64,000 nt of DNA, from assembly GCF_020594515.1 (NCBI RefSeq), contig NZ_JAJCTH010000003.1:248001-312000 (forward strand), read 5' to 3'. This stretch comes from Rhodoferax sp. U2-2l (GTDB lineage: Bacteria > Pseudomonadota > Gammaproteobacteria > Burkholderiales > Burkholderiaceae_C). The notes beneath the pieces are model-generated. The model worked only from the letters and a program-made list of their open reading frames with translations. It was not told the origin of the DNA and ran no database searches. The translations under genes and the position numbers were made by a program. Below are positions 36,433 to 57,410 of the stretch, in pieces. The number at the start of each line of letters is the position of its first letter. Position 1 is the stretch's first letter.

Positions 36433-39051
36433 ATGGCTGTGACGAACAAGGAAGAACTCTACGCACTGGTGGCGCGGGTCAAGAAGGCGCAAGCACTGTT
36501 TGCGACTTTCACGCAGGAAAAAGTGGATGCCATTTTCCGCAACGCAGCGCTGGCTGCCACCGACGCGCGGATCCCGCTGGCCAAGCTCGCAGTGACCGAG
36601 ACCGGCATGGGTGTGCTGGAAGACAAGGTCATCAAAAACCACTTCTCGTCAGAGTACATCTACAACAAGTACAAGGACGAAAAGACCTGCGGCATCTTGT
36701 CTGAAGACGACAACTTCGGCACCATCACGATTGCTGAACCCATTGGCATCCTGTGCGGCATCGTCCCCACCACCAACCCCACCTCCACCGCCATCTTCAA
36801 GGCGCTGATCGCGCTCAAGACACGCAACGGCATCATCTTCTCGCCCCACCCACGTGCACGCAGGTCCACCTGTGAAGCCGCTCGTCTGGTGTTGGAGGCC
36901 GCTGTGGCAGCTGGTGCACCGGCCGACATCATTGGCTGGATCGACGAACCCACCGTGGACTTGTCCAACGAGCTGATGCGCCATCCAGACATCAACCTGA
37001 TCCTGGCCACCGGCGGCCCGGCCATGGTGCGTGCTGCTTATTCCTCCGGCAAACCCGCCATTGGTGTGGGTGCGGGCAACACCCCGGCCGTGATTGATGA
37101 GACCGCTGACATCAAACGTGCGGTGGCCTCCATCCTGATGTCCAAAACCTTTGACAACGGCGTGGTCTGTGCGTCCGAGCAGTCGGTCATCATTGTTGAA
37201 CAGGCCTACCAGGCGGTGCGTGAACGTTTTGCCAAACATGGCGGCTACATCCTGAACGCTGAAGAAGCCGAAGCTGTGCGCAAGGTCATCCTCAAAAATG
37301 GCTCACTCAACAGCGCGATCGTGGGCCAATCGGCCATCGTGATTGCAACCATGGCCGGGATTTCTGTGCCGGGTTTCACCAAGGTGTTGATCGGTGAAGT
37401 GACCGATGTGTCAACCAATGAAGCCTTTGCCCACGAAAAACTTTCACCCATGTTGGCCATGTACAAGGCCACAGATTTTGTTGATGCTTGCAGCAAAGCA
37501 GCGGCATTGGTGGCCATGGGTGGCATTGGCCACACCTCTTCGCTCTACACCGACCAGGATTTGCAGGGTGACCGCATCGCCTACTTTGGCGACAAGATGA
37601 AGACCGCCCGCATCCTCATCAACACACCGTCTTCACACGGTGGTATTGGTGACCTCTACAACTTCAACCTCGCGCCGTCCTTGACCCTGGGCTGCGGCTC
37701 TTGGGGTGGCAACTCGATTTCCGAAAACGTCGGACCCAAGCACCTGATCAACAAGAAAACCGTCGCCAAGAGGGCCGAGAACATGTTGTGGCACAAACTC
37801 CCCAAATCCATCTACTTCCGTCGCGGCTGCCTGCCGATTGCCCTGGAAGACCTGGCAGACCGCAAGCGCTGCCTGATCGTGACGGACCGGTACCTGTTCG
37901 AAAACGGCTACGTGGACGACACCACGCGCATTCTCAAGAAGCAAGGCCTGGAAGTGGAATGTTTCCACGAAGTGGCCGCTGACCCGACCCTGGCGGTGGT
38001 GCGCAAAGGTCTGTCGATGGCGAACGCCTTCCAGCCCGACGTGATTCTGGCGCTGGGTGGTGGCTCACCGATGGATGCGGCCAAGATCATGTGGGTGATG
38101 TACGAACATCCGGAAGTCCAGTTTGAAGACTTGGCGCTGCGTTTCATGGACATCCGCAAACGCATCTACAAGTTCCCCAAGATGGGCCTCAAGGCCATGA
38201 TGGTCGCGGTGCCAACCACCTCCGGCACCGGCTCCGAAGTGACCCCGTTTGCCGTGGTGACCGACGAAGTGACCGGTGTGAAGTACCCGATTGCCGACTA
38301 CGAACTCACACCCAACATCGCCATCGTGGATGCCAACCTGGTCATGAACATGCCCAAGTCACTCACCGCTGTGGGTGGTATCGACGCGGTGACCCATGCG
38401 CTGGAAGCTTATGTGTCGGTGATGGCCAACGAGTACTCTGATGCACAAGCCTTGCAGGCCCTCAAGCTGCTCAAGGACTACCTGCCAGCCTCGTTCATCA
38501 ACGGTGCCAACGATCCGAAAGCACGTGAACAAGTCCACAACGCGTCGTGTATCGCCGGTATTGCGTTTGCCAACGCCTTCCTGGGTGTGTGCCACTCGAT
38601 GGCGCACAAGCTGGGTGCCGAGTTCCATCTCGCCCACGGCCTGGCCAACGCGCTGTTGATCTCGAACGTCATCCGTTACAACGCCGCTGACATCCCGACC
38701 AAACAAACCGCCTTCAGCCAGTACGACCGGCCCAAGGGTGTGGAGCGTTATGCCCAGATCGCCAAACACCTTGGCCTGGAAGCCACCAGCGACCATGACC
38801 ACGTTGAGAAACTGGTGGAGTGGGTCGATGGCCTGAAGAAGGTGCTGGGCATTCCTGCCTCGATCCAGGCCGCCGGTGTCAACGAAGCCGAATTCCTGGC
38901 CAAGGTGGACAGCCTGGCAGAAGCCGCGTTTGACGACCAGTGCACCGGCGCCAACCCGCGCTTCCCGCTGATCAGCGAACTCAAGGAACTGCTGATCCAC
39001 AGCTACTATGGCAACGCCTATCACGAGGTATATGAGTCTGAGGCCCAATAA
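36433..39051 (+). CDS. adhE: Bifunctional acetaldehyde-CoA/alcohol dehydrogenase
   Basis: AdhE reduces acetyl-CoA to acetaldehyde and then to ethanol with two NADH. The 872-residue protein has an N-terminal CoA-acylating aldehyde dehydrogenase domain with catalytic Cys246 (DNGVVCASEQS), a linker, and a C-terminal iron-dependent alcohol dehydrogenase with the nucleotide loop ALGGGSPMDAAKIMW and iron-ligand His residues in FLGVCHSMAHKLGAEFHLAHGLANALL. Length fits E. coli AdhE (891). Its codon use has more AAC/GTG-type frequent codons than its neighbours, suggesting high expression. It matches a fermentative or low-oxygen lifestyle and could drain acetyl-CoA from the PFOR encoded 6 kb downstream. 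Confidence 0.96.
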   Translation: MAVTNKEELYALVARVKKAQALFATFTQEKVDAIFRNAALAATDARIPLAKLAVTETGMGVLEDKVIKNHFSSEYIYNKYKDEKTCGILSEDDNFGTITIAEPIGILCGIVPTTNPTSTAIFKALIALKTRNGIIFSPHPRARRSTCEAARLVLEAAVAAGAPADIIGWIDEPTVDLSNELMRHPDINLILATGGPAMVRAAYSSGKPAIGVGAGNTPAVIDETADIKRAVASILMSKTFDNGVVCASEQSVIIVEQAYQAVRERFAKHGGYILNAEEAEAVRKVILKNGSLNSAIVGQSAIVIATMAGISVPGFTKVLIGEVTDVSTNEAFAHEKLSPMLAMYKATDFVDACSKAAALVAMGGIGHTSSLYTDQDLQGDRIAYFGDKMKTARILINTPSSHGGIGDLYNFNLAPSLTLGCGSWGGNSISENVGPKHLINKKTVAKRAENMLWHKLPKSIYFRRGCLPIALEDLADRKRCLIVTDRYLFENGYVDDTTRILKKQGLEVECFHEVAADPTLAVVRKGLSMANAFQPDVILALGGGSPMDAAKIMWVMYEHPEVQFEDLALRFMDIRKRIYKFPKMGLKAMMVAVPTTSGTGSEVTPFAVVTDEVTGVKYPIADYELTPNIAIVDANLVMNMPKSLTAVGGIDAVTHALEAYVSVMANEYSDAQALQALKLLKDYLPASFINGANDPKAREQVHNASCIAGIAFANAFLGVCHSMAHKLGAEFHLAHGLANALLISNVIRYNAADIPTKQTAFSQYDRPKGVERYAQIAKHLGLEATSDHDHVEKLVEWVDGLKKVLGIPASIQAAGVNEAEFLAKVDSLAEAAFDDQCTGANPRFPLISELKELLIHSYYGNAYHEVYESEAQ

Positions 39052-43997: not shown

Positions 43998-44381
43998 TCA
44001 GGCGTGCCGGGTTGAGAAAAGCTGCGACAGTTCGCGGTCCATCAAATCAGCGTCGCCGGTGTTGAGCTCCAGCAGACGGCGCAGCAGCGTCAGGCTGGCC
44101 AGGTCGATGTGCTCGCAACGCAGGCCCACGTGGCAGTCTTTCAAGTGGGCGATGGTGCCCGCCATTTCAATGACCTCATCGTCGCCCGACAGCGGCAACA
44201 GCAAACGGCAAGGCGCTTGCAACTGGATGTCTTCAGGCACATCGGTCTGCACCAGTGCGCCTTTGAGGGCAATGTCCAGCAGGGTCACTTCCAGATTTTT
44301 GCCAGGCAGGTGCAGTGTGACGGCAGCGCTGAACGGGACGCGCGAAAACTGGCGGTGACCTTCGGCAGGGATGGCATTCAT
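43998..44381 (-). CDS. PilZ domain protein
   Basis: The 127-residue protein is a single PilZ domain. The c-di-GMP binding motif is RQFSRVPFSAAVTL (an RxxxR element at residues 10-14) and the second motif is the D-x-S-x-x-G equivalent LDIALKGALV, where Ser is replaced by Ala. It probably binds c-di-GMP and controls surface or motility functions. It lies 23 bp after the J-protein operon on the opposite strand and near the membrane cyclase gene. Confidence 0.85.
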   Translation of the reverse strand: MNAIPAEGHRQFSRVPFSAAVTLHLPGKNLEVTLLDIALKGALVQTDVPEDIQLQAPCRLLLPLSGDDEVIEMAGTIAHLKDCHVGLRCEHIDLASLTLLRRLLELNTGDADLMDRELSQLFSTRHA

Positions 44382-44649: not shown

Positions 44650-45510
44650 TCAGTACAACACCACATGCCAGCGACCGCTGGCCAGCAGGTTCTGGCGAAT
44701 GTGGGTCCAGGCCTCGGTGCCGCCCAGGATGTTGGCGAAGCTGTCTTCCACCCGGCCCAGCATGGCGTGCGGGCCGGCGATATAGACCTGGGTGCTGGCC
44801 TCTTGCAGCATCTCCCGCACCTCGGCGGCATTTTTTTCAATCGCCAGTTCCACCGCTGGTGGTTCGTCAAAATGCGGCCGCGGGCTCACCGCCTGAAAAG
44901 CCTTGAAGGTGGACTGATCAAAATAGTTCGCCAGATCCTGGTTCTGGTCGTTCATGTAGAGCATTTCCAGGCCGCTGCGGGCACCGTAAAACAGCCGCAC
45001 CTTGCCGTCCCAGCCGCCCAACGTGTCGTAAATGCGGTTCACCAGCCCGCGAAAGGGGGCAATGCCGGTGCCCATGCCCACCATCAGCAGGGGCGACTGG
45101 CGGTTGGCCGGGATCGAAAACGGGTGGCCTGAGGGGCCCGAAAAACGCACCACGCTGCCCAGCGGCAGATCACACAGGTAGTTGGAGGCGACACCGGCAT
45201 AACGCTCGCCACTGAAGTCATCGAGGTAGCTGCAGCGGCGCACCAGCAACGAGAACTCGGTGTGTTGCGCGTCGACGTGGTCGATGTGCGCCAGCGAATA
45301 CAGGCGGGTGTGGTGCTGGTTGCCAAATTGGCCGGGGGCCATGATCTGGATGCATTGGCCGATCCGGGCGTCAAAGCCGGCATCGTCGGTTGAAAAGATC
45401 ATGTGCCGCACATCTTCGGGGGAGTCGGGCGGCGTGATCCGGCTGCTGCCGATGAGTCTGGCCGTCAGGAGCCGTTGATCATCTGCGGTGGGGGTGTCGG
45501 TGCTTGGCAT
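44650..45510 (-). CDS. Plant-type ferredoxin-NADP+ reductase-like flavoprotein
   Basis: This 286-residue protein has the FNR family FAD motif HTRLYSLAHIDH (RxYS), the NAD(P) loop LLMVGMGTGIAPFRGLVNR, and the end GRWHVVLY with a C-terminal Tyr that in plant-type FNR stacks on FAD. A middle segment FSGPSGHPFSIPANRQ is also typical. It probably exchanges electrons between ferredoxin and NADP(H). It is the last gene of the PFOR-Rnf operon, adding an NADPH outlet to the ferredoxin pool. BoxA-type reductases share the C-terminal half, so oxygenase-reductase is an alternative. Confidence 0.85.
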   Translation of the reverse strand: MPSTDTPTADDQRLLTARLIGSSRITPPDSPEDVRHMIFSTDDAGFDARIGQCIQIMAPGQFGNQHHTRLYSLAHIDHVDAQHTEFSLLVRRCSYLDDFSGERYAGVASNYLCDLPLGSVVRFSGPSGHPFSIPANRQSPLLMVGMGTGIAPFRGLVNRIYDTLGGWDGKVRLFYGARSGLEMLYMNDQNQDLANYFDQSTFKAFQAVSPRPHFDEPPAVELAIEKNAAEVREMLQEASTQVYIAGPHAMLGRVEDSFANILGGTEAWTHIRQNLLASGRWHVVLY

Positions 45511-45536
45511 GGTGTGGGTTCCTTGTGGGTGGTTGG

Positions 45537-45776
45537 TCAGGTTTCTTTGGAACGGTTGGCAACCGGGATGGGCCGCTGTGGGGTGGTTGGGCCGGGGGGA
45601 CTGCTGCAGGTTTTGGCACAGCCGCCGCAGCCGCCGCCACAGCCCGCGCCCGCTTCCCGGAACGGGCCCGCCTCGGGGTGGCGCGCTGCCACACGGCGCG
45701 CCAGGGTCTGGACCGTGATCCAGACGCCCAGCAGCACCCCCAGGGTGGCCAGCGCGCTCAAATAGTTGGCCAGCAC
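45537..45776 (-). CDS. Small Cys-rich membrane protein after rnfA (NqrM/FeoB-associated-like)
   Basis: This 79-residue frame begins at GTG one base after the rnfA stop (an ATG at 45797 inside rnfA is the alternative). It has one membrane span (LSALATLGVLLGVWITVQTLA) and then a Cys/Gly cluster, AGAGCGGGCGGCAKTCSSP, with four Cys in about a dozen residues, and a Pro-rich tail. NqrM, which is needed to deliver iron to the NqrD/NqrE centre, has the same simple layout of one span plus four Cys; FeoB-associated proteins do too. RnfA/RnfE are NqrE/NqrD homologues, so a comparable assembly role is plausible but inferred. Confidence 0.7.
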   Translation of the reverse strand: MLANYLSALATLGVLLGVWITVQTLARRVAARHPEAGPFREAGAGCGGGCGGCAKTCSSPPGPTTPQRPIPVANRSKET

Positions 45777-45777
45777 T

Positions 45778-46356
45778 TTAGTTCCCCAGCCCGGCAAAAC
45801 CCATGAACGAGAGTGACAGCAGCCCGGCCAGCATCAAGGCCAGGGCCGAACCGCGCGCGATGTCTGGCACCTCCACCAGTTGCATGCGTTCGCGCAGGCC
45901 GGCCATCAGCACCAGCGCCAGCGTGAAGCCGATGCCGCCGCCCAATGCAAACGCCATCGACTGGACAAAACTGTAGTCACGCGCGGTCTGGAACAGCGCC
46001 ACGCCCAACACCGCGCAATTGGTGGTGATCAGTGGCAGGTAAATGCCCAGGGCCCGAAACAGCGCCGGGCTGTGTTTTTTGAGCACCATCTCCACCAGTT
46101 GCACCGCTGACGCGATGATCACGATGTAGGAGATCAGCCGCAAAAACTCCAGGTGCAACAGGCCCAGAAGCCAGTTGAGCCCAAAAGCGCACAGCGAAGC
46201 CACCACCATCACGAAGGTGGTGGCCACGCCCATGGGGAACGCTGTTTCCAGCTTGCCCGATACGCCCAAAAACGGGCACAAACCCAGAAACATGGCCAGC
46301 ACAAAGTTGTTGGCCAGGATCACGCTGATAAAAATTTGATATGCCGATTCCTGCAT
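45778..46356 (-). CDS. rnfA: Electron transport complex subunit RnfA
   Basis: RnfA is a six-span membrane subunit that with RnfE holds an iron-sulfur centre inside the membrane. The 192-residue protein has MQESAYQIFISVILANNFVLAMFLGLCPFLGVSGK, where the half-membrane Cys lies in GLCPFLG, and the second conserved TTNCAVLGVALFQ. It follows rnfE by five bases. The start at MQES is standard (E. coli RsxA is 193 residues). Confidence 0.96.
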   Translation of the reverse strand: MQESAYQIFISVILANNFVLAMFLGLCPFLGVSGKLETAFPMGVATTFVMVVASLCAFGLNWLLGLLHLEFLRLISYIVIIASAVQLVEMVLKKHSPALFRALGIYLPLITTNCAVLGVALFQTARDYSFVQSMAFALGGGIGFTLALVLMAGLRERMQLVEVPDIARGSALALMLAGLLSLSFMGFAGLGN

Positions 46357-46361
46357 GATGC

Positions 46362-47036
46362 TCAAGCCTTTGCGGCAGCTGTTTTGACCAACAAGGTTTT
46401 GGATTTGCGCTTTTCCCACCAGGCAAACAGCAACAACCAGGAGCCCAGCACAAAGAAGCCACCCGGTGGCAGCACCATCACCACCCAGGGCTGGAAGTCC
46501 GCCCCGAACAGGCTGATGCCAAACAGGCTGCCGGCACCCAGAATCTCACGCACTGTGCCCAGTGCCAGCAGCCCGATCATGAACCCCAACCCCATGCCCG
46601 CCGCGTTGACCATGGCGCGCAGCGGCGGGTTTTTGGAGGCATGGGCTTCGGCCCGGCCCAGAATGATGCAATTCACCACGATCAGCTGGATAAACGCCCC
46701 AAGTGCTTCGTACAGCGCCAGGCTGATGGACTGAATGGCGTAGTCCACCACCGTGACAAACGTGGCAATGATGACGATGTAGGTGGCGATGCGTACCTCT
46801 TTGGGAATCACCTTGCGCAACAGCGACACCAGCAGCGCCGAGCAGACCAGCACCAGCAGCGTGGCCACGCCCATTGACAGCGCATTGATGGCAGACACCG
46901 TGACCGCCAGGGTGGGGCACATGCCCAGCATCATCACAAACACCGGGTTCTGGCGCCAGATGCCTTCCGTGAAATCGTCCCAGCTGACGCCGCCGGTGGC
47001 GTCCACAGCAGGCTTGGTCTTGGGTTGCTCACTCAT
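46362..47036 (-). CDS. rnfE: Electron transport complex subunit RnfE
   Basis: This 224-residue six-span subunit pairs with RnfA. Its conserved Cys segments are VMMLGMCPTLAVTVSAINAL and IVVNCIILGRAEAHASKN, the equivalents of those in RnfA that bind the intramembrane iron centre. It overlaps rnfG by four bases (ATGA). Length fits the family (about 200-230). Confidence 0.96.
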   Translation of the reverse strand: MSEQPKTKPAVDATGGVSWDDFTEGIWRQNPVFVMMLGMCPTLAVTVSAINALSMGVATLLVLVCSALLVSLLRKVIPKEVRIATYIVIIATFVTVVDYAIQSISLALYEALGAFIQLIVVNCIILGRAEAHASKNPPLRAMVNAAGMGLGFMIGLLALGTVREILGAGSLFGISLFGADFQPWVVMVLPPGGFFVLGSWLLLFAWWEKRKSKTLLVKTAAAKA

Positions 47037-47725
47037 TTTGACGATCCGATCTTGTCGAGTTGGGGCACCAGCACGGGCAGCAGCGCTTGCGCCGCGTCGT
47101 TGATGGCGCGGCCCACCGCCCGCGAGGTGACGGTGGCGCCTGAGATGGCATCCACCTGCCAGGCCTGGGTTTTGCTGCCGTGCTTGACGGTTTTGACCTC
47201 GTTGGCCAGGGCTTTCATGTCAGCCGCCAGCCGCACATCCAGCGCCTTGAAATTGGCCAGAAAGTTGGCGTCTTTTAGGATCTTGTCGCCAATGCCAGGT
47301 GTCTCTTGCATCGACACCACGCTGAAGCCCACCACGCAGTGGCAGGGCGGCGAGTAGCCAAACATGATGCGCACATTGCCGGCGTAACCCTTGGCCGAGC
47401 CTTCGGCGGCAATGCCCATCAACTGGCCTGATGCGTCAAACGCCGCGTGAAAAGGCACACCGTCAGCGGCGGTGTCAGCACCTGTCAACGGTCGGATACC
47501 GCCGTTGGGCCGGGCCACATAGGCCACCGTTTTGGCGGCACCCGGCAACACCTTGTGGATGGCGCGCTCCATGGCCACCCGGCGGTTCTCCTGGACCGAG
47601 CTCAGGCTGCCTTCATAGGCCACCACGATGATCAGCCCGCAGATGGCCGCCACCAGGCCCAGCGCCAGCAGCATGGCACGGGTGGGCGTTGGCGGTGCCG
47701 CAAGGGGCAGGGCAGGTGTGCTCAT
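47033..47725 (-). CDS. rnfG: Electron transport complex subunit RnfG
   Basis: RnfG is a membrane-anchored periplasmic flavoprotein. The 230-residue protein has one N-terminal span (AMLLALGLVAAICGLIIVVAY) and the covalent FMN attachment motif VDAISGATVTSRAV near residues 190-203. The middle has QETPGIGDKI, a family signature. An unusual stretch, GYSPPCHCVVGF, places two Cys (C-x-C) where most relatives have a plain beta strand. It overlaps both rnfD and rnfE by four bases. Confidence 0.93.
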   Translation of the reverse strand: MSTPALPLAAPPTPTRAMLLALGLVAAICGLIIVVAYEGSLSSVQENRRVAMERAIHKVLPGAAKTVAYVARPNGGIRPLTGADTAADGVPFHAAFDASGQLMGIAAEGSAKGYAGNVRIMFGYSPPCHCVVGFSVVSMQETPGIGDKILKDANFLANFKALDVRLAADMKALANEVKTVKHGSKTQAWQVDAISGATVTSRAVGRAINDAAQALLPVLVPQLDKIGSSK

Positions 47726-48870
47726 GATTTTTTGGGCTTGTTCTTGAGGAATTGCTTCTTGGGCGTCACCGCATTGGCCTCTTCACGCGAGATGTACTCG
47801 GGGTGCAGCGGGTAACTGGCGCTGCGCTTGGGCCGCAGCAGGCCCGACTTGCCAAACGGTGTGGGCTGGGTGATGCGCTCAATCAGCGGCGCGGCGGCAT
47901 TGCCCAGCAAAATGGCGTACATCACGCCTTCCGGCAGGCCGCTGTAATAGCGGATCACCACTGTGAGCAGCCCGATGACCGCGCCATACACCCACATGCC
48001 GCGTGGCGTGACCGGTGAGGTGGCCATGTCGGTCGCCATGAACACCGCGCCCAGAATCAGCCCGCCCGAGAACAGCATGAAAAACGGGTCCGGGTAGTGC
48101 TGCGGCGCAATGGCAAACAAAATCCACGCGGTTAGCCCGGCGCTGCCGATGATGGCCACCGGAATGCGCCAGTCCATGAAGCGACGCAGCGCCAGGTACA
48201 TCCCGCACAACAGGATCAGCAGCGGCGACGGCCCCACGGCCATGTGGCCGGCCAGCGAGGTCAACAAATCTCCCGCCGGGGTCAGCTCCCCTTCAAACTT
48301 CCACTTGGCCAGCGGCGTGGCGCCACTCAAGCCGTCCACGGTTTGGCTGCTCACCCAGGCCACGGTGTCGGGTGGCAGCATGAACGGCCAGGCCAGCGTG
48401 CTGGGAATGAACTCGGTGAAACGCCCGGGCAAAAAAGAGGGCGTGTAGGTGGCAATGGCTGACGGAAAAGCCGCCTGCACAAACGCCCGCCCGACCAGCG
48501 CCGGATTGAACACGTTGAACCCAATGCCGCCAAACACCGCCTTGCCCAGCGCCATGGCCACAAAACCCGCCACCACGCCCATCCACAAGGGGTAACCCGG
48601 TGGCAGGGTGAGCGCCAGCAAGAGGCCTGTGATGGTGGCCGACCAATCGGCCAGCGAGCCCGATTGGGTGCCGGTCTTCACAAAAAACCGCTCGGTCAAC
48701 AAGCAGGTGCCGGTGATCACCACGATGGACGCCAGCGCCGAAATGCCGTACTGGTAAACGTAAAACAGGCACACCGGCAGCAGCGCACCCACCACGTTGC
48801 GCATGATCTGCTCGACACTGCGTGGTGCCTTGATGTGCGGCGCGCTGCGGATTTCAATGGTCGCGCTCAT
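47722..48870 (-). CDS. rnfD: Electron transport complex subunit RnfD
   Basis: RnfD is the multi-span membrane subunit carrying covalent FMN. In this 382-residue protein the FMN attachment motif is DGLSGATPLAKWK, near residue 185, and characteristic segments are GGIGFNVFNPALVGRAFVQAAFP and GAVFMATDMATSPVTPRGMWVYG. It overlaps rnfC and rnfG by four bases each (ATGA), typical of translational coupling along the operon. Confidence 0.96.
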   Translation of the reverse strand: MSATIEIRSAPHIKAPRSVEQIMRNVVGALLPVCLFYVYQYGISALASIVVITGTCLLTERFFVKTGTQSGSLADWSATITGLLLALTLPPGYPLWMGVVAGFVAMALGKAVFGGIGFNVFNPALVGRAFVQAAFPSAIATYTPSFLPGRFTEFIPSTLAWPFMLPPDTVAWVSSQTVDGLSGATPLAKWKFEGELTPAGDLLTSLAGHMAVGPSPLLILLCGMYLALRRFMDWRIPVAIIGSAGLTAWILFAIAPQHYPDPFFMLFSGGLILGAVFMATDMATSPVTPRGMWVYGAVIGLLTVVIRYYSGLPEGVMYAILLGNAAAPLIERITQPTPFGKSGLLRPKRSASYPLHPEYISREEANAVTPKKQFLKNKPKKS

Positions 48871-50228
48871 GCGGCACTCGCCTTTTCACGCAACACCTGC
48901 TTGGCGATGCGAAATTGCTGGACCAGCGGGATGTTGGACGGGCAGACATAGGTGCAGCAGCCACATTCAAAACAGTCCCCCAGGTGGTAACGCTGGCCCA
49001 TCAGCTCGTACTCGCGTTTGGCGGCCAGCATGCCCAGCGTGGACGGGTTCAGCCCCATCGGGCACGACTCGACACACTCGCCGCATTTGATGCAGGGGTA
49101 GGTGGCGCGGCCATCGCGGTCGGCCATGTCTTCCGGCTGGAACACCAGAATGCCGGACACGCCTTTGGTCACCGGCGTGTCCAGCGAGGCCACCGATTGG
49201 CCCATCATCGGTCCGCCCAGCACCAGCTGGCAGGCGTTGGCCGCGTTTTTGTTGACCCCCGCCCACTCCAGCACAAACGAGATCGGTGTGCCCAGCGGCA
49301 CACGGTAGTCGCCTGGGCGGCTGACACCTGGGCCGGCAATGGTCACCACGCGCTCGGTCAGGCCCTGCCCGGCGGGCAACAGTTGGCCCAGGGCCGCCAG
49401 CGTGCCCACGTTGTTCATGACCATGCCCAGCGACACCGGCAGCGCGCCGGACGGAATCTCCACGCCAAACAGCGCCATCAGCAACATCTTCTCGGAGCCT
49501 TGCGGGTACTTGGTGGGCACGGCTTCCACAAACAGGTTGTCCGCTTGGGTGGCGTTTATCGCCGCCTGGATGGCAGCCACAGCGTCGGGCTTGTTGTCTT
49601 CCACACCGACGATGCCGCGCACGGCCCCGGTGGCGCGCATGGCCAGTTGCATGCCCAGCACCAGCTCGGGCGCTTTTTCCAGCATCACGCGGTGGTCGCA
49701 GGTCAGGTAGGGTTCACATTCGCAGCCGTTGACGACCAGCGTGTGGACCTTGGCCTGCTTGGGCACCATCAGCTTGGCGTGGGTGGGAAAGGCCGCGCCA
49801 CCCAGACCCACCATGCCGGTGTCCCACACCGCCTGCAAAATTTCAGACGCGTCCAGGCCGGACAGGTCACGCGGCACACCCCACAAATCCTCTTGCGTGG
49901 CCCCTGCGTGCGGGCGGATCACGATCGATTCGGCCCACGGCCCGCGGGCTGTCGGGCGCAGCTCGATGGCCGTCACCACACCCGTGGCCGGGGCATGGTG
50001 CGGTACCGACAGCCAGTCACTGGTTTTGGCAATCGGTTCACCACGCACCACCTCCTGCCCCACGCGCACGATGGGCTGCGGGGCTTTGCCGATGTGTTGT
50101 GACAGCGGCACGATCAGGTGCTCGGCATACGGCAGCCGCCGAATCGGCGTGCGCGCGGTGTGCTTGTTTTGCGGCGGGTGGATGCCGCGCGCAAAGGTCT
50201 CGCCGCGCAGGAAGTTCAGAAACTTCAT
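48867..50228 (-). CDS. rnfC: Electron transport complex subunit RnfC
   Basis: RnfC is the peripheral subunit with the NADH/FMN-binding fold and two [4Fe-4S] clusters. The 453-residue protein starts MKFLNFLRGETFARGIHPP (an upstream start at 50390 is out of context) and has the flavin/NADH segment GMVGLGGAAFPTHAK, VNGCECEPYLTCDH, and the cluster motifs CIKCGECVESCP and CFECGCCTYVCP near the C-terminus. It lacks the long C-terminal Ala/Lys repeats of E. coli RsxC. It lies 22 bp after the PFOR gene. Confidence 0.96.
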   Translation of the reverse strand: MKFLNFLRGETFARGIHPPQNKHTARTPIRRLPYAEHLIVPLSQHIGKAPQPIVRVGQEVVRGEPIAKTSDWLSVPHHAPATGVVTAIELRPTARGPWAESIVIRPHAGATQEDLWGVPRDLSGLDASEILQAVWDTGMVGLGGAAFPTHAKLMVPKQAKVHTLVVNGCECEPYLTCDHRVMLEKAPELVLGMQLAMRATGAVRGIVGVEDNKPDAVAAIQAAINATQADNLFVEAVPTKYPQGSEKMLLMALFGVEIPSGALPVSLGMVMNNVGTLAALGQLLPAGQGLTERVVTIAGPGVSRPGDYRVPLGTPISFVLEWAGVNKNAANACQLVLGGPMMGQSVASLDTPVTKGVSGILVFQPEDMADRDGRATYPCIKCGECVESCPMGLNPSTLGMLAAKREYELMGQRYHLGDCFECGCCTYVCPSNIPLVQQFRIAKQVLREKASAA

Positions 50229-50250
50229 AGAGGAAGTCTTGCGTCGGCCA

Positions 50251-53200
50251 TCAGTTGTACTTGGCGGCACGGGCCAGCAGCTTGTCCAGCCCCGGCTCGG
50301 ACGCATCCCACGGGGTGCCCGGGTGCAGGCAACCGGCGGTGCATTTCTCGGCCGCCTTGACCAGGTCCTTGTACTTGGCCCCTTTGGCATTGGTCACCAC
50401 CACCTGTTTCTGGTCGTTGTAGGCAAACACCTTGGGTGCCAGCGTGGTGCACTCGTCGCAGGCGGTGCATTCCGGGGTGTCGACCCAGCAGGCTTCGTAA
50501 CCGCCGCTGGGAACGGCCACCGCCACGGTCTCAGGGGCGACCGGCTGCGCTGCGGCTGGCACGGTGGGTGCGGCAGGTGGAATGTTGCTGCCCGACAGGC
50601 CCAGGCTGGCGGAAATGCGCTGCAACAACTCGGTGCGCACCCGCGTGGCCACGGCTTCGTCGTTGACCGCGGTGTGGTCTTCCGGCCGTTTGGCCACATC
50701 CTTGAGCTGCTTCCAGAAATTCTGGCGCTCCTCGCAGGCCAGCACCAGCTCTTTGGAAACCAGCAGGCGCATCAGACGGTTCTTGGTGTCCGTCGCCCAG
50801 ATGTAGGGGTAGCGGCCTTCGCGCTCGTCTTGCGGCAGGGTCAGCAACTCGGCCAGTGGCAGCATGGCGTCGTTCCAGGTTTCAGGCGGGGCCTTGCGGA
50901 ACTGCTTGCTGAACCGACCCTCGGTGGCGGCAAAGTCGGCAAAGGTCACCGGCAATTCCATGCGCAGCTCTTCGCCCGCTTCGTCCAGGTAGGGCAGGGA
51001 ATAGACCGGCCAGTCGGTCTCCATCGACGGGTTGCCTTCCAGGCTGACACACTCCGAGAACGTGGTGCCGGCATCGGGGTCGAAGCGGAACAGCGGGTAG
51101 GCGCGGCTTTCCACCGCCAGCTTGCTCTGGTCCACGCTCTTGTCGTCCCCCACGCCATGCTCGGGCGGGCACACCGCGTAGATGTTGAACAGGGCCGGGC
51201 GGCGCGAGTTGAGGCCCTCGATGTAGCCCTCCAGCAAATGGGTCACATGCGCGATGGTGCTTTGCAGCACAAACGAGGTGCGGTGCGCCATGGCAATCAC
51301 ACTCATCTCCTTGCGGATCTCGGTCTTGCCGTGCATGGCCTTGCCGTAGGGTGCCATGTCCGACACCTGGCTGATGAAGCCCGAGGTGCAGGCTTGGCCG
51401 CCGGTGTTGGAATACACCTGGGTGTCCACCACCAGCACCTTGATCGGTTTGCCCGACATCATGGCGCGTGACAGGTTCTGGAAACCGATGTCGTACATGG
51501 CGCCGTCACCGCCCAGGCTGACCACCGGCGGGCACAAATGCCACTCGTCGTCGCTGAACTGGGGCCAGTCAAAACGTTTGAAGAAGTCGGCATCGCGCTC
51601 GTCGATGTACTCGCCTTTGAGCTCCAGCTCGGCCATGCGCACCGCCTTAAAGCCCTCGGCCATCTTGGCCATGTGGCCCTCGAACAGGCCCATCGCCACC
51701 GAGGGCGAGTCCTGGAACAGGTGCGAGGTCCATGGGAACGGGTACGGGTGGTAGGGGTAGGTGGAGCCCCAGACCGAGGTGCATCCCGTCGAATTGACCA
51801 TGCCCATGTCGGCGCGGCCGCGTTTGCTCGGGCCTTCCACATAACGCCAGCGCAGGTCTTTGAGCTTGTCCAGCAGCTGGGCGGTGCGTTTGATCCAGGC
51901 CGGGTCGAGCGGCTGCGACGGTTTGTTGGCAGACAGGCTGGCCGCCAGCGTGGACAGCGTCAGGTCTGAGCTGCTGGCGTTGACGGCAGACACCACCGCA
52001 CTGGCGTCCGACAGGTCGATGGCGTTGGCCAGCCGGTTGCGCATGTGTTGTTCCAGGTCGGTGATGAGCTGGTCCAGCCGCGCCACGTAGTCGCGCACGC
52101 GGGGTTGCATCAGCGCGGCAGCCGCGGCGGTGAACAGGTGGATGGCGGTTTTTTCGCCGCAGCCCAGGCAGGCGCCGTCGCCGCAGTTCATCGAGTTGTA
52201 GGTGGTTTTGTCGAGCAGCAGGGTGTCGAGCGCGCCGATTTTCTCGTCCAGGCTGTCGATCCGGCTGTAGTCCTTGGAGGTGGTGGGCAGGTCCAGCCAG
52301 AAGTCCCAGTCCTGGCGCAGCGTTTGCACCGAGCTTTCTGTCTGCGTCACCATCTTCAAGGCCTTGTCCTCACACACGGTGACACACAGGGCGCAGGATT
52401 TGCAGGTGAGCGGGTTGACGGTGATCGAGAACAGGCCGCCGCTGCCGGGGGCTTTCTTTTCCTTTTGTGTCCAGTAGGGTTTGGTGGTGGCGAACTGGAA
52501 GTTGCCCAGCTGGGCTTTGAGCAGTTCAAATTCGGCGCCAAGCTTGACGCGCTCTTCTTCGGGTGCATCGGCAATGGTGGCGTCAATCGCCTGGTCGATC
52601 AACGGGCGCACGGCCACGCCGTCCCCGGTGATCAGGGCGCGCAGTTTTTTCTCAGCCACACGCACCGCGCGGCGCAGGAAGCGGGTTGGGGTGCCGCTGG
52701 TCTCTATCCGGTTTAACGCGGTGGTGAAGACCTCCGGCAGACTGTTGACCAGACCCGGCATGGCGCTGTCGGGACAGACGGTGTAGCAGGCGCCGCAGGC
52801 GGTGCAGTTCTCAGCTTGCCAGACCGGGTGTTCAAAACGGATGCCGGTCATGTCGCGGTAAATGCCGGTGGCTGCCGGTACCAGCGAGGCACCGATGAAC
52901 GGGTCCACCAGGTTGTCGTTGCCCTTGCCGGTGGCATAAAAATGGCCGGTTTGCTCCCAGAAACGGTGCATGTCCGCCACCGGTGGCAGGTGTTTGGCAT
53001 CAGCCACCGGGGTGCGCAGCAACATCGTGGGCAATCCAGCGCCCACCTTGCTCACCGACAGATGGTGGTTGCCCAGCGGTTTGTCGGTGATCTCGCGGGT
53101 TTCCACGTAGCCGCGTTTGACCACGGTCAGGTTGTTTTGCACCACCCGGCCGCCTTTGCCGCCGAACTTGGCTTCGAGCTGTTTTTCAATCGCGCGGAAC

Positions 53201-55230
53201 AGGGTTTCTTCGCTCAAGCCCGCGTTCTCCCGCACCGGGGAGGCGGCAAAAAACGCGCCCTGGAAGGCGTTGCCCTGCATGCGCAGCATCAGTTCGGCGC
53301 TGCCAGCTTCCTCGCGGGCGATCTGGAACGCGTCCAGGTAAAACACGCGGATTTGCTGCTCGACGATCTGCTTTTGTGCCCACGCCGGAAAGGCGCCCCA
53401 GGTGGCATCACCCAGATTGCTCTGGATGATGAAGACGCCGCCTTTTTTCAGGCCGGTGAGCGGGTTCGAGTGGCCGAACACGGCCGGGTCGGGCGACAGC
53501 ACCACGTCCAGATGCACGTATTCGCTGTTGACGCGGATCAGCTCCGGTGCGGCGGACAGGTAATAGGTGGTGGGCTGGCCCTTCTTTTCCGAGCCGTACT
53601 TGGGGTTGGCCTTGATCTCGTAACCCAGCAGGTCAAACAGGGTCATCGCCAGGTTTTTGCCGGTGGTGATGGCACCCCAGCCGCCAATCGAGTGCATGCG
53701 CACGGTGATCGCTCCAGGCGGCATCAGGTTCGGGTTTTCGCTGCCATGCACGGCCAGTTCGCGGATGCGTGGGTAAGCGGCGTGCAAGGCTTCCTGGTGC
53801 AACTCGTCCTTGGGGTTGATCGGGTCGCGGGCGAAATCGACCGACAGGTAAAAGAACGAGCGGCGCTGGCCGTTGGGCAGCATGTTCTCGAACGCGCCAA
53901 TCAGGCCTTCGGGTTGCAGGTCGCGCGAACCCAGGCCGTAGCAGCCCGAGTACAGCCGTGGCATCTCGGCAGCGGGGATGCAGGCATAACCCGGGTTGGG
54001 CAGCTCGGCGTTGATGTTGGCGCCACGGTCCGCTGCGGCCTGGCCGTTCTCCAGACATTTGGAGAGGGTGGCGCGCACTTCGCGCATCAGCGGCAGGTCT
54101 TCGGCCAGCGGCTGGTCGGTGCGTTCCAGCACCGCCACGCCCTTTTTGCCACGCAACACATGGCCCAGCAGGTCGCCGGGGAACGGGCGGAACATGGTCA
54201 GGTTGACCACGCCCACCTTGAGTTTGCGGGTCGTGCGCAGGTAGTCGGCCACGGCCTCGGCCTGCACGATCATGCTGCCCATGCCGAGGATCAGGTAGTC
54301 GGCGTCGTCACATTGCCAGCTGCTGACCCGTTGGTAACTGCGCCCGGTCAGGGTGGCGTACTCGGCCATGCTGGCGTCGGTCATGGCGGCAATGTGGTCG
54401 AAGAAATACGGGCGCTGGCCCGCCACCGACTGCATGTAGGCGTCCTGGTTCTGCACCGAGCCTGAGAGCATCGGCGCATCCACGTCCCAGATGGCGGGCA
54501 CCCGGCGGCGTTTGGGGCCGTAGAGCATGGCTTGCGCCGGGGTGGGCGTGTCGATCAGGTCGTCGGGCTTGCCGAGGAATTCAGCCACCAGCTCGCGCTC
54601 GGGCAGGCGGGCGGATTCGATCAGGTGGGTGGTCAGAAAACCGTCCTGGCCGACGATGGCCGGTGTCAGCGACAGCTCGGCCACCTTGCGCGAGATCAGG
54701 TTCAGGTCGGCCGCTTCGGTGGCGTTTTTGGCCATCACCTGGATGAAACCGGTGTCGTCAATGCAGTGGTAGTCGTCATGGCCGGCGTGCACGTTCAGGC
54801 TGGCCTTGGTGATGGCGCGGCAACCCATGTTCAGCACGTAGGGCAGGCGTTTGCCCACCGTGGCGTAGAGCGACTCGTGCATGAAGGCAATGCCCTGGCC
54901 TGAACTGAAGTTGGTGGCGCGCAGCCCGGTCATCGACATACCGGCGGTGACGCCTGCCGCAGCGTGTTCGGACTCGGGTTCAACAAAGATCAGTGGCCGG
55001 TCCGAGATATTCAGGTGCCCGGCAGACACTTCCTCGGCCCAGTATTCACCCATTTGGGTGGACGGGGTGATCGGGTAGGCCCCGGCTGCGTCAGAGGCCT
55101 CACGCTCCACGTGGATCACCGCCGTGTTGCCGTCCACCGCGTCGCGGATGCCGGGGAATTTGACCTGGCTGAGGTCGGTCGCGGCCGCGCTGGTGTCACC
55201 CGTCAGATAGTTGAGCATTTTTTTGAGCAT
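50251..55230 (-). CDS. nifJ: Giant one-chain 2-oxoacid (pyruvate):ferredoxin oxidoreductase with C-terminal ferredoxin
   Basis: The 1659-residue protein reversibly splits a 2-oxoacid, most likely pyruvate, to acetyl-CoA, CO2 and reduced ferredoxin. Domain order: N-terminal oxidoreductase domain (REASDAAGAYPITPSTQMGEYW), gamma domain (MHSIGGWGAITTGKNLAM, near 530), ferredoxin motifs CTACGACYTVCP (about 807) and CKSCALCVTVC (about 941), the thiamine-diphosphate domain (GGDGAMYDIGFQNLSRAMM, about 1237, and VVDTQVYSNTGGQ), then an Ala/Pro linker and an added single-cluster ferredoxin (CTACDEC, about 1586, with C-x3-C near 1627). NifJ is usually near 1175 residues; here about 480 are extra, including a spacer of about 120 between the two ferredoxin motifs. 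Substrate choice is inferred. Confidence 0.93.
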   Translation of the reverse strand: MLKKMLNYLTGDTSAAATDLSQVKFPGIRDAVDGNTAVIHVEREASDAAGAYPITPSTQMGEYWAEEVSAGHLNISDRPLIFVEPESEHAAAGVTAGMSMTGLRATNFSSGQGIAFMHESLYATVGKRLPYVLNMGCRAITKASLNVHAGHDDYHCIDDTGFIQVMAKNATEAADLNLISRKVAELSLTPAIVGQDGFLTTHLIESARLPERELVAEFLGKPDDLIDTPTPAQAMLYGPKRRRVPAIWDVDAPMLSGSVQNQDAYMQSVAGQRPYFFDHIAAMTDASMAEYATLTGRSYQRVSSWQCDDADYLILGMGSMIVQAEAVADYLRTTRKLKVGVVNLTMFRPFPGDLLGHVLRGKKGVAVLERTDQPLAEDLPLMREVRATLSKCLENGQAAADRGANINAELPNPGYACIPAAEMPRLYSGCYGLGSRDLQPEGLIGAFENMLPNGQRRSFFYLSVDFARDPINPKDELHQEALHAAYPRIRELAVHGSENPNLMPPGAITVRMHSIGGWGAITTGKNLAMTLFDLLGYEIKANPKYGSEKKGQPTTYYLSAAPELIRVNSEYVHLDVVLSPDPAVFGHSNPLTGLKKGGVFIIQSNLGDATWGAFPAWAQKQIVEQQIRVFYLDAFQIAREEAGSAELMLRMQGNAFQGAFFAASPVRENAGLSEETLFRAIEKQLEAKFGGKGGRVVQNNLTVVKRGYVETREITDKPLGNHHLSVSKVGAGLPTMLLRTPVADAKHLPPVADMHRFWEQTGHFYATGKGNDNLVDPFIGASLVPAATGIYRDMTGIRFEHPVWQAENCTACGACYTVCPDSAMPGLVNSLPEVFTTALNRIETSGTPTRFLRRAVRVAEKKLRALITGDGVAVRPLIDQAIDATIADAPEEERVKLGAEFELLKAQLGNFQFATTKPYWTQKEKKAPGSGGLFSITVNPLTCKSCALCVTVCEDKALKMVTQTESSVQTLRQDWDFWLDLPTTSKDYSRIDSLDEKIGALDTLLLDKTTYNSMNCGDGACLGCGEKTAIHLFTAAAAALMQPRVRDYVARLDQLITDLEQHMRNRLANAIDLSDASAVVSAVNASSSDLTLSTLAASLSANKPSQPLDPAWIKRTAQLLDKLKDLRWRYVEGPSKRGRADMGMVNSTGCTSVWGSTYPYHPYPFPWTSHLFQDSPSVAMGLFEGHMAKMAEGFKAVRMAELELKGEYIDERDADFFKRFDWPQFSDDEWHLCPPVVSLGGDGAMYDIGFQNLSRAMMSGKPIKVLVVDTQVYSNTGGQACTSGFISQVSDMAPYGKAMHGKTEIRKEMSVIAMAHRTSFVLQSTIAHVTHLLEGYIEGLNSRRPALFNIYAVCPPEHGVGDDKSVDQSKLAVESRAYPLFRFDPDAGTTFSECVSLEGNPSMETDWPVYSLPYLDEAGEELRMELPVTFADFAATEGRFSKQFRKAPPETWNDAMLPLAELLTLPQDEREGRYPYIWATDTKNRLMRLLVSKELVLACEERQNFWKQLKDVAKRPEDHTAVNDEAVATRVRTELLQRISASLGLSGSNIPPAAPTVPAAAQPVAPETVAVAVPSGGYEACWVDTPECTACDECTTLAPKVFAYNDQKQVVVTNAKGAKYKDLVKAAEKCTAGCLHPGTPWDASEPGLDKLLARAAKYN

Positions 55231-55287
55231 GATGGTGTTCCCGGAGAAAAATTAAATCGTTGGGCGGGTCGCGACAGGCGCACCGCG

Positions 55288-56166
55288 TTAATGCTTGAGC
55301 GGCAACGGGTCGTTGCGCAGGATCTTTTTGGCCGAATGCCCGCGTGCGCCTTGCGCCAGGTCGTCAAACCAGACGATGGCGCCGGTGGGGCAGCGGTCGG
55401 TGAGGTGGCGGCTGGCCTGGTCGTGCCAGTCGTAGTCGATCTCGACCAGGTTGTTTTTGAGGGTCAGCAGGCCCGCTGGCGCATCGGCCACACATTTGCC
55501 GCAGGCGGTGCAAGCGACTTCGCAGGCCGCTTCGGCGGCGTCGCCATCGGCGCGGTTGCGGCAGGCCACCCACAGTTTGCGCTGGGTGGGTTGCAGCGAA
55601 AACAGGCCTTTGGGGCAGACCTCGACGCAATCGTTGCAGGCGGTGCACAGGTCGGGGTCTACCACCGGCAAGCCATGCCGGTCCAGATGGATCGCGCCCT
55701 GCTTGCACACCGTGGCGCAGTCGCCCAGCCCCAGGCAGCCCCAGACACACTCCTTGCCGCCGCCACTCACCACCGCCGCGGCCCGGCAGGTGGACAAACC
55801 GGCGTAACGCGCCCGGGTGTAGGCCACATGTTTGCCACCCGCGCAGGCGAGGCGCGCCACGCGGCGTTCCACATCGCCCGCATCCACACCGAGCAAACTG
55901 GCGATGGCGCCGACCTGCAAGGCATTGTTCACCGTGCATTGTGCGGGCACCACGTCACCGGCGATGACTTTTTCGGCGAAGTTGCGGCAACCGGCCAGAC
56001 CACAGGCACCGCAGTTGGACTTGGGCAGCAGCTCTTCCACCGCCTCGATGCGCGGGTCTTCATAGACAAACAGGCGCCGGTTGGCCAAGGCCAGCACGCC
56101 CGCCAGCAGCAGGCCGAGCACGGCCATGAACAGGCCGGCACTACCAATGGTTCCAACTAGTTCCAA
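55288..56166 (-). CDS. rnfB: Electron transport complex subunit RnfB
   Basis: RnfB accepts electrons from ferredoxin. The 292-residue protein has an N-terminal span, then the RnfB Fe-S domain (LLPKSNCGACGLAGCRNFAEKV and PAQC) and two ferredoxin motifs (CTACNDCVEVCP and, modified, CTACGKCVADAP), with further Cys in CVWGCLGLGDCATVC. The second motif lacks the final Cys of CxxxCP, so one cluster may be changed. Translation starts with TTG at 56166, preceded by GGAG. It lies between apbE and the PFOR gene, not in its usual place between rnfA and rnfC. Confidence 0.93.
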   Translation of the reverse strand: MELVGTIGSAGLFMAVLGLLLAGVLALANRRLFVYEDPRIEAVEELLPKSNCGACGLAGCRNFAEKVIAGDVVPAQCTVNNALQVGAIASLLGVDAGDVERRVARLACAGGKHVAYTRARYAGLSTCRAAAVVSGGGKECVWGCLGLGDCATVCKQGAIHLDRHGLPVVDPDLCTACNDCVEVCPKGLFSLQPTQRKLWVACRNRADGDAAEAACEVACTACGKCVADAPAGLLTLKNNLVEIDYDWHDQASRHLTDRCPTGAIVWFDDLAQGARGHSAKKILRNDPLPLKH

Positions 56167-56207
56167 CGGATGAACTCCACAAAGATCGACGCCAGCCCCG
56201 GCGGGGC

Positions 56208-57209
56208 TCAGGCTGTCAGTTCAGGGAAATAAGCGGTTTTGCGGCGGCTGCCGTCTTTGCCCACCAGCAAGGCGTCCACCTGCGGCAAGGCGGCGGCGAG
56301 CGCCAGCGCCTTGTCCACCCCCATCACCAAAAATGCGGTGGACAGGCCGTCGGCCATCAGCCCGGTGGGCGCCAGCACCGTGGCACTGGCCAGGGTGGTG
56401 GGCGAGTCGCCCGTGGCGGGGTCAAAAATGTGGTGGTGGCGGAAGTCCGGGCTGAATACCGTTTCGTAGTCGCCGGAGGTGGCGAGCTGGCGGCCATCCA
56501 GCGGCACCCGGGCGGCCAGGGTATCGGCTTGCCGTGGGTTTTTGATGCCCAGCACCCAAGGTTGGTCGGTCGCCTTGTGGCCGAGGACGCCAAATTCGCC
56601 GGTATCCAGCAGGGCGTGGGTGATGCCATGGGCACGCAAGGCCGCCAGGGCCAGGTCCACCGCGTAACCTTGCGCCAGCCCGTTGAGGGTGATGGCCATG
56701 CCGGGCTTGGTCAGCCGAATCTGGTCAGCGTCCACGCGCACATCCTGCCAGTTGACCAGCGCTTTGGCCTGGGCGATGGCGGCGGGGGCGGGTAACGCCC
56801 CTTGGGCCTGAGCCTGGCTGAACGCCAGCCACAGCGGTTGCACGGTCACGTCAAACGCGCCGCCTGTCTGGCTGGCGAGTTGCCGGGCGTAGTCCAGCAC
56901 CTGGCGCAGATGGGGGTCAGGGTTGGCAAGCTGTCCCGTGGCGTTGAGCTGGTAGACCTGGCTGTGGGGCTGGTGCAGGCTCATCAGGGCGTCCACCTGG
57001 CTGATGTGACGCAAAGCCTCTGCGATGGCCGCTTGTGCGGTGAGCGGGTCCTCGTGCAACACGCGGATGGCCACCGTGGTACCAAACGCTCGCCCGCCGC
57101 CTGTGTGGGCCGTCAGTTCAGGCAAAGCGCTGGCGCGCGATCCCCAATAGGCCAGCCCTCCCAGAGAAGCCAGACCCAGAGAGGCAGAAAGCAAGGTGCG
57201 ACGGTGCAT
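56208..57209 (-). CDS. apbE: FAD:protein FMN transferase ApbE
   Basis: ApbE attaches FMN to a Thr or Ser of RnfG, RnfD and related proteins. The 333-residue protein has a leader (HRRTLLSASLGLASLGGLAYWGS), the motif RAFGTTVAIRVLHEDPL, the segment FDVTVQPLWLAFSQ, DLALAALRAHGITHALLDTGEFGVLG, and a C-terminal HHHIFDPATGDSPTTLASATVLAPT with the Asp/Thr magnesium site. As first gene of the operon it presumably serves RnfG and RnfD made from the same transcript. Confidence 0.94.
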   Translation of the reverse strand: MHRRTLLSASLGLASLGGLAYWGSRASALPELTAHTGGGRAFGTTVAIRVLHEDPLTAQAAIAEALRHISQVDALMSLHQPHSQVYQLNATGQLANPDPHLRQVLDYARQLASQTGGAFDVTVQPLWLAFSQAQAQGALPAPAAIAQAKALVNWQDVRVDADQIRLTKPGMAITLNGLAQGYAVDLALAALRAHGITHALLDTGEFGVLGHKATDQPWVLGIKNPRQADTLAARVPLDGRQLATSGDYETVFSPDFRHHHIFDPATGDSPTTLASATVLAPTGLMADGLSTAFLVMGVDKALALAAALPQVDALLVGKDGSRRKTAYFPELTA

Positions 57210-57410
57210 TCAAATTCCCTGTAAACATTTGTACGCAGTTGCGAACATTTGTGAACATTTTAAATTCAATACAGGGTTTTTTGGACAAGTGTAAACATAA
57301 ACTTACACCTGTCTGGCGCATTCTAAGTCTTTGATTTATATAAGTTCTGGCGCGAAATCCGGGTGAGTGACAGTTTTCGGGGCGTTGGCTGCGGGCGGCC
57401 GGCCGCGGGC
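57210..57410 (-). promoter_or_regulatory. Promoter region of the apbE-Rnf-PFOR operon
   Basis: This 200-bp gap is AT-rich against the local average. It contains a 20-bp inverted repeat GTGTAAACATAAACTTACAC at 57289-57308, whose core TGTAAA-N6-CTTACA resembles a TyrR-type box with one mismatch. Three close AACATTT copies lie at 57224-57230, 57244-57250 and 57254-57260. A weak FNR-like half-site TTGATTTATATAAG is at 57331-57344. The regulator is not identified. Confidence 0.5.

Follow-up and report, generated by a model that had tools for sequence, protein, structure and literature searches.

A giant pyruvate:ferredoxin oxidoreductase gene within a conserved Rnf operon of Rhodoferax and other beta- and gammaproteobacteria

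The PFOR-Rnf operon of Rhodoferax sp. U2-2l

Pyruvate:ferredoxin oxidoreductase (PFOR) and the ferredoxin:NAD+ oxidoreductase Rnf are encoded by a single compact operon in Rhodoferax sp. U2-2l (NCBI RefSeq assembly GCF_020594515.1, contig NZ_JAJCTH010000003.1, positions 248,001 to 312,000, forward strand; this stretch of 64,000 nucleotides is termed “the window”). At positions 44650-57209 of the window, ten open reading frames (ORFs) on the minus strand follow each other in the order apbE, rnfB, PFOR (1659 amino acids, aa), rnfC, rnfD, rnfG, rnfE, rnfA, a gene for a small cysteine-rich membrane protein and a gene for a plant-type ferredoxin-NADP+ reductase (FNR; Table 1). A preliminary description, made from the sequence alone, had reported these genes as separated by short gaps or overlapping by four bases; the coordinates are confirmed, and the starts of rnfC, rnfA and the cysteine-rich gene are corrected here. 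RnfC probably starts at Met55 of its frame (position 50228, 22 bp past the PFOR stop codon) rather than at 50390, since homologues align only from about residue 53. The probable starts of RnfA and of the cysteine-rich protein are Met22 of the listed ORF (46356) and position 45776, respectively. With these starts, the pairs rnfD/rnfC, rnfG/rnfD and rnfE/rnfG overlap by 4 bp each, and the remaining gaps do not exceed 57 bp.

The gene identities proposed earlier are backed by the expected Pfam or NCBIfam matches for nine of the ten genes, the exception being the 86-aa cysteine-rich gene, and the idea that the products belong to one redox pathway holds up. RnfA, C, D, E and G score above their TIGR cut-offs, and RnfB, which carries FeS and Fer4 domains, lies marginally below (TIGR01944, 68.5 bits versus 68.7). 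ApbE has an export-like signal (RRTLL) at its N-terminus, and apbE is the first operon gene in Rhodoferax loci only; at other loci it is found downstream or is absent. The FNR-like protein comprises the FAD and NAD(P) domains, the RxYS motif and the C-terminal Tyr of plant-type FNRs (motifs RLYS, GVASNYLCD and GTGIAPFR), and reaches no FNR equivalog cut-off in the NCBIfam scan. In about 20 loci, relatives of this flavoprotein are found at the equivalent position.

Table 1. Features of the PFOR-Rnf operon and its upstream region (window coordinates)
Feature	Position	Strand	Evidence or remark
TGT-N12-ACA palindrome (PpsR/CrtJ-like)	57290..57307		98 bp before apbE
TGT-N12-ACA palindrome (PpsR/CrtJ-like)	57230..57247		38 bp before apbE
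apbE, FAD:protein FMN transferase	56208..57209	-	PF02424 237.6 bits, cut-off 25.6
rnfB, long poly-Fe-S type, 292 aa	55288..56166	-	PF04060 FeS and Fer4 domains; NF005504 209.5 bits
giant PFOR, 1659 aa	50251..55230	-	POR_N, PFOR_II, POR, Fer4, TPP_enzyme_C, Fer4_13
disordered Ala/Pro-rich PFOR linker, residues about 1545-1579	50494..50598	-	pLDDT <50
C-terminal single [4Fe-4S] ferredoxin domain of PFOR, residues about 1580-1659	50254..50493	-	Fer4_13 E 1.9e-7
rnfC	48867..50228 (ORF opens at 50390)	-	TIGR01945 474 bits, cut-off 246
rnfD	47722..48870	-	TIGR01946 280 bits, cut-off 207; SGAT flavinylation motif
rnfG	47033..47725	-	TIGR01947 107.6 bits, cut-off 102; SGAT flavinylation motif
rnfE	46362..47036	-	TIGR01948 228 bits, cut-off 213
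rnfA	45778..46356	-	TIGR01943 247 bits, cut-off 229
small one-helix membrane protein, Cys-rich tail	45537..45776	-	conserved motif; no Pfam family
plant-type FNR-like flavoprotein, BoxA/PetH C-terminal type	44650..45510	-	PF00175, PF00970

The giant PFOR and its tethered ferredoxin

The PFOR matches the Moorella thermoacetica structure 6cin (E 1.8e-76) and shares with homodimeric PFORs (also Desulfovibrio africanus 1b0p; NifJ, TIGR02176) the domain order I, II, III (gamma), two-cluster V and thiamine pyrophosphate (TPP)-binding VI, as well as the catalytic Thr/Glu/Arg residues, the GDG and YSNTGGQ motifs and the proximal-cluster cysteines. Every PFOR domain and all TPP and substrate residues are present. 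Unlike the homodimeric enzymes, the giant PFOR is about 450 aa longer, with helical insertions around residues 825-940 and 1025-1135, a further domain (1391-1513) that has no match in the PDB, and a tethered C-terminal ferredoxin. It reaches 380 bits against the curated equivalog TIGR02176 (cut-off 911) and accordingly is a PFOR-type enzyme outside this equivalog.

In an alignment of 76 homologues Thr55, Glu88, Arg138, GDG, YSNTGGQ and 16 cluster cysteines are kept; we take the roles of these residues from established PFOR knowledge. Cys809/812/815/819 and Cys943/946/949/953 correspond to the two domain-V clusters, Cys1021/1024/1150/1354 to the proximal cluster, and Cys1588/1591/1594/1630 of the C-terminal ferredoxin are at least 99% conserved. 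The 16 invariant cysteines would bind four [4Fe-4S] clusters. The C-terminal domain, which had escaped the preliminary description, is predicted with good confidence, as is domain 1391-1513, and resembles Desulfovibrio gigas ferredoxin II and other solved ferredoxins (Foldseek probability 0.97-1.00). The linker in front of it is predicted to be disordered, consists of Ala and Pro to 34% (16% in the whole protein) and varies from 32 to 94 aa among the 76 homologues. A model of residues 790-1659 is of low confidence (pLDDT 63) and served for the ferredoxin domain and the linker only; a PHROGs scan of the C-terminal part gave no match. The tethered ferredoxin looks like a swinging arm, which could shuttle electrons between PFOR and Rnf.

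Conservation of the rnfB-PFOR-rnfC arrangement

A search in which each species was represented by one genome retrieved at least 80 loci with PFOR relatives of 63-95% identity, and synteny was counted at those loci whose contig permits the test. The rnfB-PFOR-rnfC adjacency, a search for which had been proposed together with the preliminary description, proved almost invariant: among the matches listed, rnfB lies directly 5' of the PFOR gene in 72 of 74 loci, rnfC lies 3' in 67 of 68, and the complete rnfB-PFOR-rnfCDGEA array is found in 56 of 57. The exceptions to the layout are L061, where rnfB has been relocated behind FNR-apbE, and L089. The loci span Rhodocyclales, Gallionellales, Hydrogenophilales, Rubrivivax, Chromatiales, Thiotrichales, Sedimenticola, Thiodiazotropha and one alphaproteobacterium, and the closest PFORs among the matches listed are those of Rhodoferax (95% identity in L035, 88% in R. 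antarcticus, L037). The ten full-length homologues from an independent sample of the class are likewise all flanked by rnfB and/or rnfC; in one of these loci (L013) rnfB is absent from the 1.5 kb flank retrieved. The recurrence in nearly all close PFOR relatives and in the independent sample argues that the arrangement did not arise by chance, and the layout is conserved in purple, sulfur-oxidizing and iron-oxidizing beta- and gammaproteobacteria.

In a phylogenetic tree, the PFOR-linked RnfC proteins are set off by a branch with full support (100/99), while the RnfCs of a sister operon (see below) group separately, and classical and nif-type RnfCs lie apart from both. Together with the synteny, this separate clade indicates that the association of PFOR and Rnf is old and specific. 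The operon shares with known RnfABCDGE systems the six subunits, the flavinylation motifs and ApbE, and differs from the usual form by the PFOR gene between rnfB and rnfC, the rnfB-first order, the long RnfB and an RnfC that belongs to neither the classical nor the nif clade. The preliminary description regarded a PFOR gene within an rnf operon as non-standard. No description of the rnfB-PFOR-rnfC layout was found in the open-licence literature searched; the layout is not rare, however, given its conservation across beta- and gammaproteobacteria, and this goes part of the way towards the refutation named in that description, PFOR-Rnf adjacency well described across many relatives. The operon is real, conserved and coherent, and, as far as the open-licence papers searched show, it is an undescribed, new arrangement of known parts. 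A comparable case is the reductive tricarboxylic acid (TCA) cycle cluster of Endoriftia, a symbiont bearing the Calvin-Benson-Bassham cycle, where 2-oxoacid oxidoreductase genes are likewise clustered with electron-supply genes: according to passages of the report, aclAB/korABCD occur with Hdr-Flx and pntAB and are clustered with Rnf, and these passages do not mention a PFOR inside an rnf operon (PMC11636981).

Directly 3' of rnfA, nearly all loci encode a small protein with the motif R(R)xxAxxHPExGPxRE..GCGxxC(x)C..C, for which no Pfam or NCBIfam family was matched in the 86-aa Rhodoferax form. To us, its single helix and cysteine tail recall NqrM, a likeness for which the Pfam search gave no backing; an NqrM-type maturation factor was rejected, as no NqrM/DUF539 match was obtained at E up to 5-10. 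Judged by motif and position, these proteins are a candidate undescribed family tied to PFOR-linked Rnf, possibly an assembly factor for the RnfA/E cluster.

Two variants of the layout were noted besides. L061 belongs to Rhodoblastus acidophilus and is the sole alphaproteobacterial copy among the at least 80 near loci listed, which suggests horizontal transfer. Four Sedimenticola loci (L086, L087, L092 and L102) harbour a gene, read from sequence as thiol peroxidase-like, between PFOR and rnfC, which perhaps provides protection against oxygen.

A sister operon with a catalytically dead PFOR

A second type of Rnf operon occurs in L145-L149 (genomes G034, G167, G218, G098 and G102). It starts with korA, korB, a gene for a linker-ferredoxin protein (810-850 aa), rnfB and a gene for a PFOR-derived protein (1290-1600 aa), and continues, where the sequence extends, with sucC, sucD, rnfC-D-G-E-A and a malate dehydrogenase-like gene. 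Profile matches confirm korAB and sucCD in L145, and korA in L149 as well, whereas elsewhere these genes were assigned by position; the linker-ferredoxin frame of L145 is interrupted, yielding ORFs of 750 and 83 aa. The PFOR-derived protein lacks the Thr of YPITPS, the Glu of ESEHAAAG, GDG, the entire YSNTGGQ motif and all four proximal-cluster cysteines, and retains the eight domain-V cysteines. Having lost the TPP motifs, it cannot bind TPP in the known way, and we read it as a putative scaffold that joins KorAB to Rnf or as a conduit for electrons between the two. Upstream of the L149 operon lie genes for a fumarate reductase-type flavoprotein and a NuoF-like protein, a gene set that would match the reductive branch fumarate-succinate-succinyl-CoA-2-oxoglutarate. 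Close relatives of the dead PFOR (E up to 1e-60) are found in about 10 of 369 class genomes, and at least two genomes (G167 and G218) harbour both operon types.

More distant giant PFORs (1680-1694 aa, 36-47% identity; L173-L175) have the same long form with linker and ferredoxin-like tail, and no Rnf was found within their retrieved flanks. In L173 (2747-10687) the gene after the giant PFOR encodes a fused NfnAB-like protein (PRK12779, 1645 bits), which indicates that PFORs of this form are partnered with NAD(P)H:ferredoxin converters. Two-gene PFORs of 38-46% identity (L150-L152) are not adjacent to Rnf.

Genome context and direction of the reaction

The host, a phototrophic, diazotrophic Rhodoferax relative, has a genome of 4.23 Mb that contains nifH, RuBisCO, isocitrate lyase and pyruvate dehydrogenase genes, as well as a more distant nifH-like gene amid photosynthesis-type genes (as read from the ORFs). 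The reduction of acetyl-CoA to pyruvate requires electrons at a potential well below that of NADH, which Rnf supplies only with an ion gradient. Several features of the carrier genomes bear on whether the PFOR works in this direction. In 14 loci the rnf genes are followed by ppsA, the gene for PEP synthase (TIGR01418, 1145 bits); ppsR, encoding the regulator of this enzyme, occurs in ten loci, mostly beside ppsA. Isocitrate lyase is absent from eight of ten ppsA-linked genomes versus 10 of 40 other carriers (Fisher p 0.002, uncorrected for phylogeny). RuBisCO is present in 48 of 51 carriers (119 of 252 class genomes), and aceE, encoding pyruvate dehydrogenase E1, in 49 of 51, which makes the PFOR dispensable for aerobic pyruvate oxidation. 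Together, these patterns favour the sequence acetyl-CoA plus CO2 to pyruvate to PEP. In purple bacteria, pyruvate synthase is an established anaplerotic route for acetate (PMC8307300).

Several observations weigh against this direction. The ppsA linkage is missing in Rhodoferax and Rhodocyclales, and the correlation with isocitrate lyase, besides lacking phylogenetic correction, does not extend to the host genome, which has the enzyme. In the class sample neither the enrichment of RuBisCO (10 of 14 carriers versus 109 of 238 genomes, p 0.10) nor the depletion of isocitrate lyase (p 0.36) is significant. As the PFOR scores far below the TIGR02176 cut-off, its 2-oxoacid could differ from pyruvate. 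Finally, adhE, encoding a bifunctional aldehyde/alcohol dehydrogenase of fermentation, lies in the window at 36433-39051, 5.6 kb from the operon. This linkage was dropped as evidence for fermentation, since adhE was not found at the corresponding place in four Rhodoferax relatives.

Proposed mechanism and rival explanations

On balance, we consider it rather probable that the operon encodes one electron-coupled module, in which a pyruvate synthase/oxidoreductase is served by an Rnf pump of its own. The sequences show the gene content, its conservation, the intact catalytic and cluster residues, the tethered ferredoxin, the separate RnfC clade and the PEP synthase linkage; there is good support for a coupling of PFOR with Rnf. 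The chemistry is reversible, and the module probably works mainly in the reductive direction, as an Rnf-driven pyruvate synthase, for which the support is moderate; pyruvate would be its substrate, and PFOR would physically dock to Rnf. Electrons from NADH would enter at RnfC and reach RnfB via the flavins and Fe-S centres in RnfD, G, E and A, driven uphill to low potential by ion influx. The linker-tethered ferredoxin would collect them at RnfB, and the three internal PFOR clusters would feed the TPP centre, where acetyl-CoA and CO2 yield pyruvate. PEP synthase, whose gene lies next to the operon in many relatives, would pull pyruvate towards PEP, the FNR would connect this ferredoxin pool with NADPH, ApbE would flavinylate RnfD and RnfG, and the small cysteine-rich protein probably aids Rnf assembly.

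Since the chemistry and Rnf are both reversible, oxidation of pyruvate with ion export is possible under fermentation, and the operon might chiefly be such a catabolic module: under anoxic or fermentative conditions pyruvate would be converted to acetyl-CoA, and Rnf would reduce NAD+ and export ions, thus saving energy that is wasted by pyruvate dehydrogenase. The nearby adhE gene fits this explanation, the PFOR of Gallionellaceae has been interpreted as fermentative (PMC10734482), and in butyrivibrios Rnf together with NifJ is reported to conserve energy (PMC4478896). Yet, PEP synthase and its regulator beside the operon would drain pyruvate, the adhE linkage is not conserved, most carriers possess RuBisCO, and the sister operon holds enzymes of a reductive TCA branch; we therefore regard a catabolic role as unlikely. 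The preliminary description put the forward pathway from pyruvate to NADH first and also offered the reverse; in view of aceE and the PEP synthase genes, the latter has gained the better support. PFOR and Rnf could also be mere neighbours that share regulation, with free ferredoxin as their sole link. Such a loose association would agree with the distant giant PFORs with a ferredoxin-like tail that occur without Rnf nearby, but the near-invariant position of PFOR between rnfB and rnfC, the dedicated RnfC clade and the dead PFOR retained in the corresponding position of the sister operon render it improbable.

The preliminary description further considered that the operon might provide reduced ferredoxin, which both PFOR and Rnf would generate, for nitrogen fixation. 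The host has nifH, and nifH is enriched among carriers (class sample, 5 of 14 versus 17 of 238, p 0.004; near set, 28 of 50). However, 22 of the 50 carriers lack nifH, no nif gene is found among the recurrent neighbours of the operon loci, and nif-positive carriers usually own a further Rnf: three or more rnfC copies are present in 23 of 28 nif-positive versus 5 of 22 nif-negative carriers (p 4e-5), and in several of the former, including the host, a further rnfC lies on the nif contig. In the host this contig (C15) carries nifH at 44302 and the second rnfC at 86393, 42 kb apart. Given also that the PFOR-linked RnfC sits in another clade, assignment to the nitrogenase-associated Rnf (Rhodobacter rnf type) was rejected, and a role as nitrogenase supply appears highly improbable. 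The second host Rnf operon (L155) has the order A, B, C, D, G, E and includes an apbE-like gene.

Those chemolithotrophs and purple bacteria whose electron donors lack the reducing power for a direct reduction of ferredoxin still carry ferredoxin-dependent carboxylases, which raises the question of how these enzymes are powered. A carboxylase connected to an Rnf of its own would be a concrete and testable answer, and organisms classed purely as Calvin cycle or glyoxylate cycle users would gain an ion gradient-driven step of CO2 fixation. The Rnf-PFOR module might also serve as a natural design for joining a pump to a low-potential enzyme, and the dead PFOR adaptor would be one of the rare examples in which the change of an enzyme into what looks like an electron-transfer component can be traced. 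Tentatively, and with more doubt than confidence, we envisage this Rnf family as a dedicated power supply of 2-oxoacid synthases, which would form membrane-bound supercomplexes with PFOR and its tethered ferredoxin or with KorAB plus the dead PFOR adaptor, such that reductive carboxylation (acetyl-CoA to pyruvate, succinyl-CoA to 2-oxoglutarate) is powered by NADH together with the ion gradient in aerobic-lineage Calvin cycle autotrophs and phototrophs.

Upstream palindromes and regulators

The PpsR meant in this section is the photosynthesis repressor, which has no relation to the PEP synthase regulator of the same name. Two palindromes upstream of apbE (Table 1) agree with TGT-N12-ACA, the published consensus of PpsR/CrtJ (PMC4452267), and in the host genome the same motif occurs in intergenic positions before genes read as bchI, bchG, bchC and crtE. 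In the whole window the motif is found 12 times, with 13 occurrences expected by chance, so that only position and conservation speak for the two palindromes: both are kept, with diverged cores, in the Rhodoferax relatives L035, L036 and L038, and a single one is left in L037. No sites for the regulator FNR, NifA or sigma-54 were detected upstream of apbE. At 23 loci rnfB is preceded by a divergent LysR gene of the CysB type (e.g., L084:7911-8870), the product of which possibly senses an acetyl-CoA or pyruvate signal.

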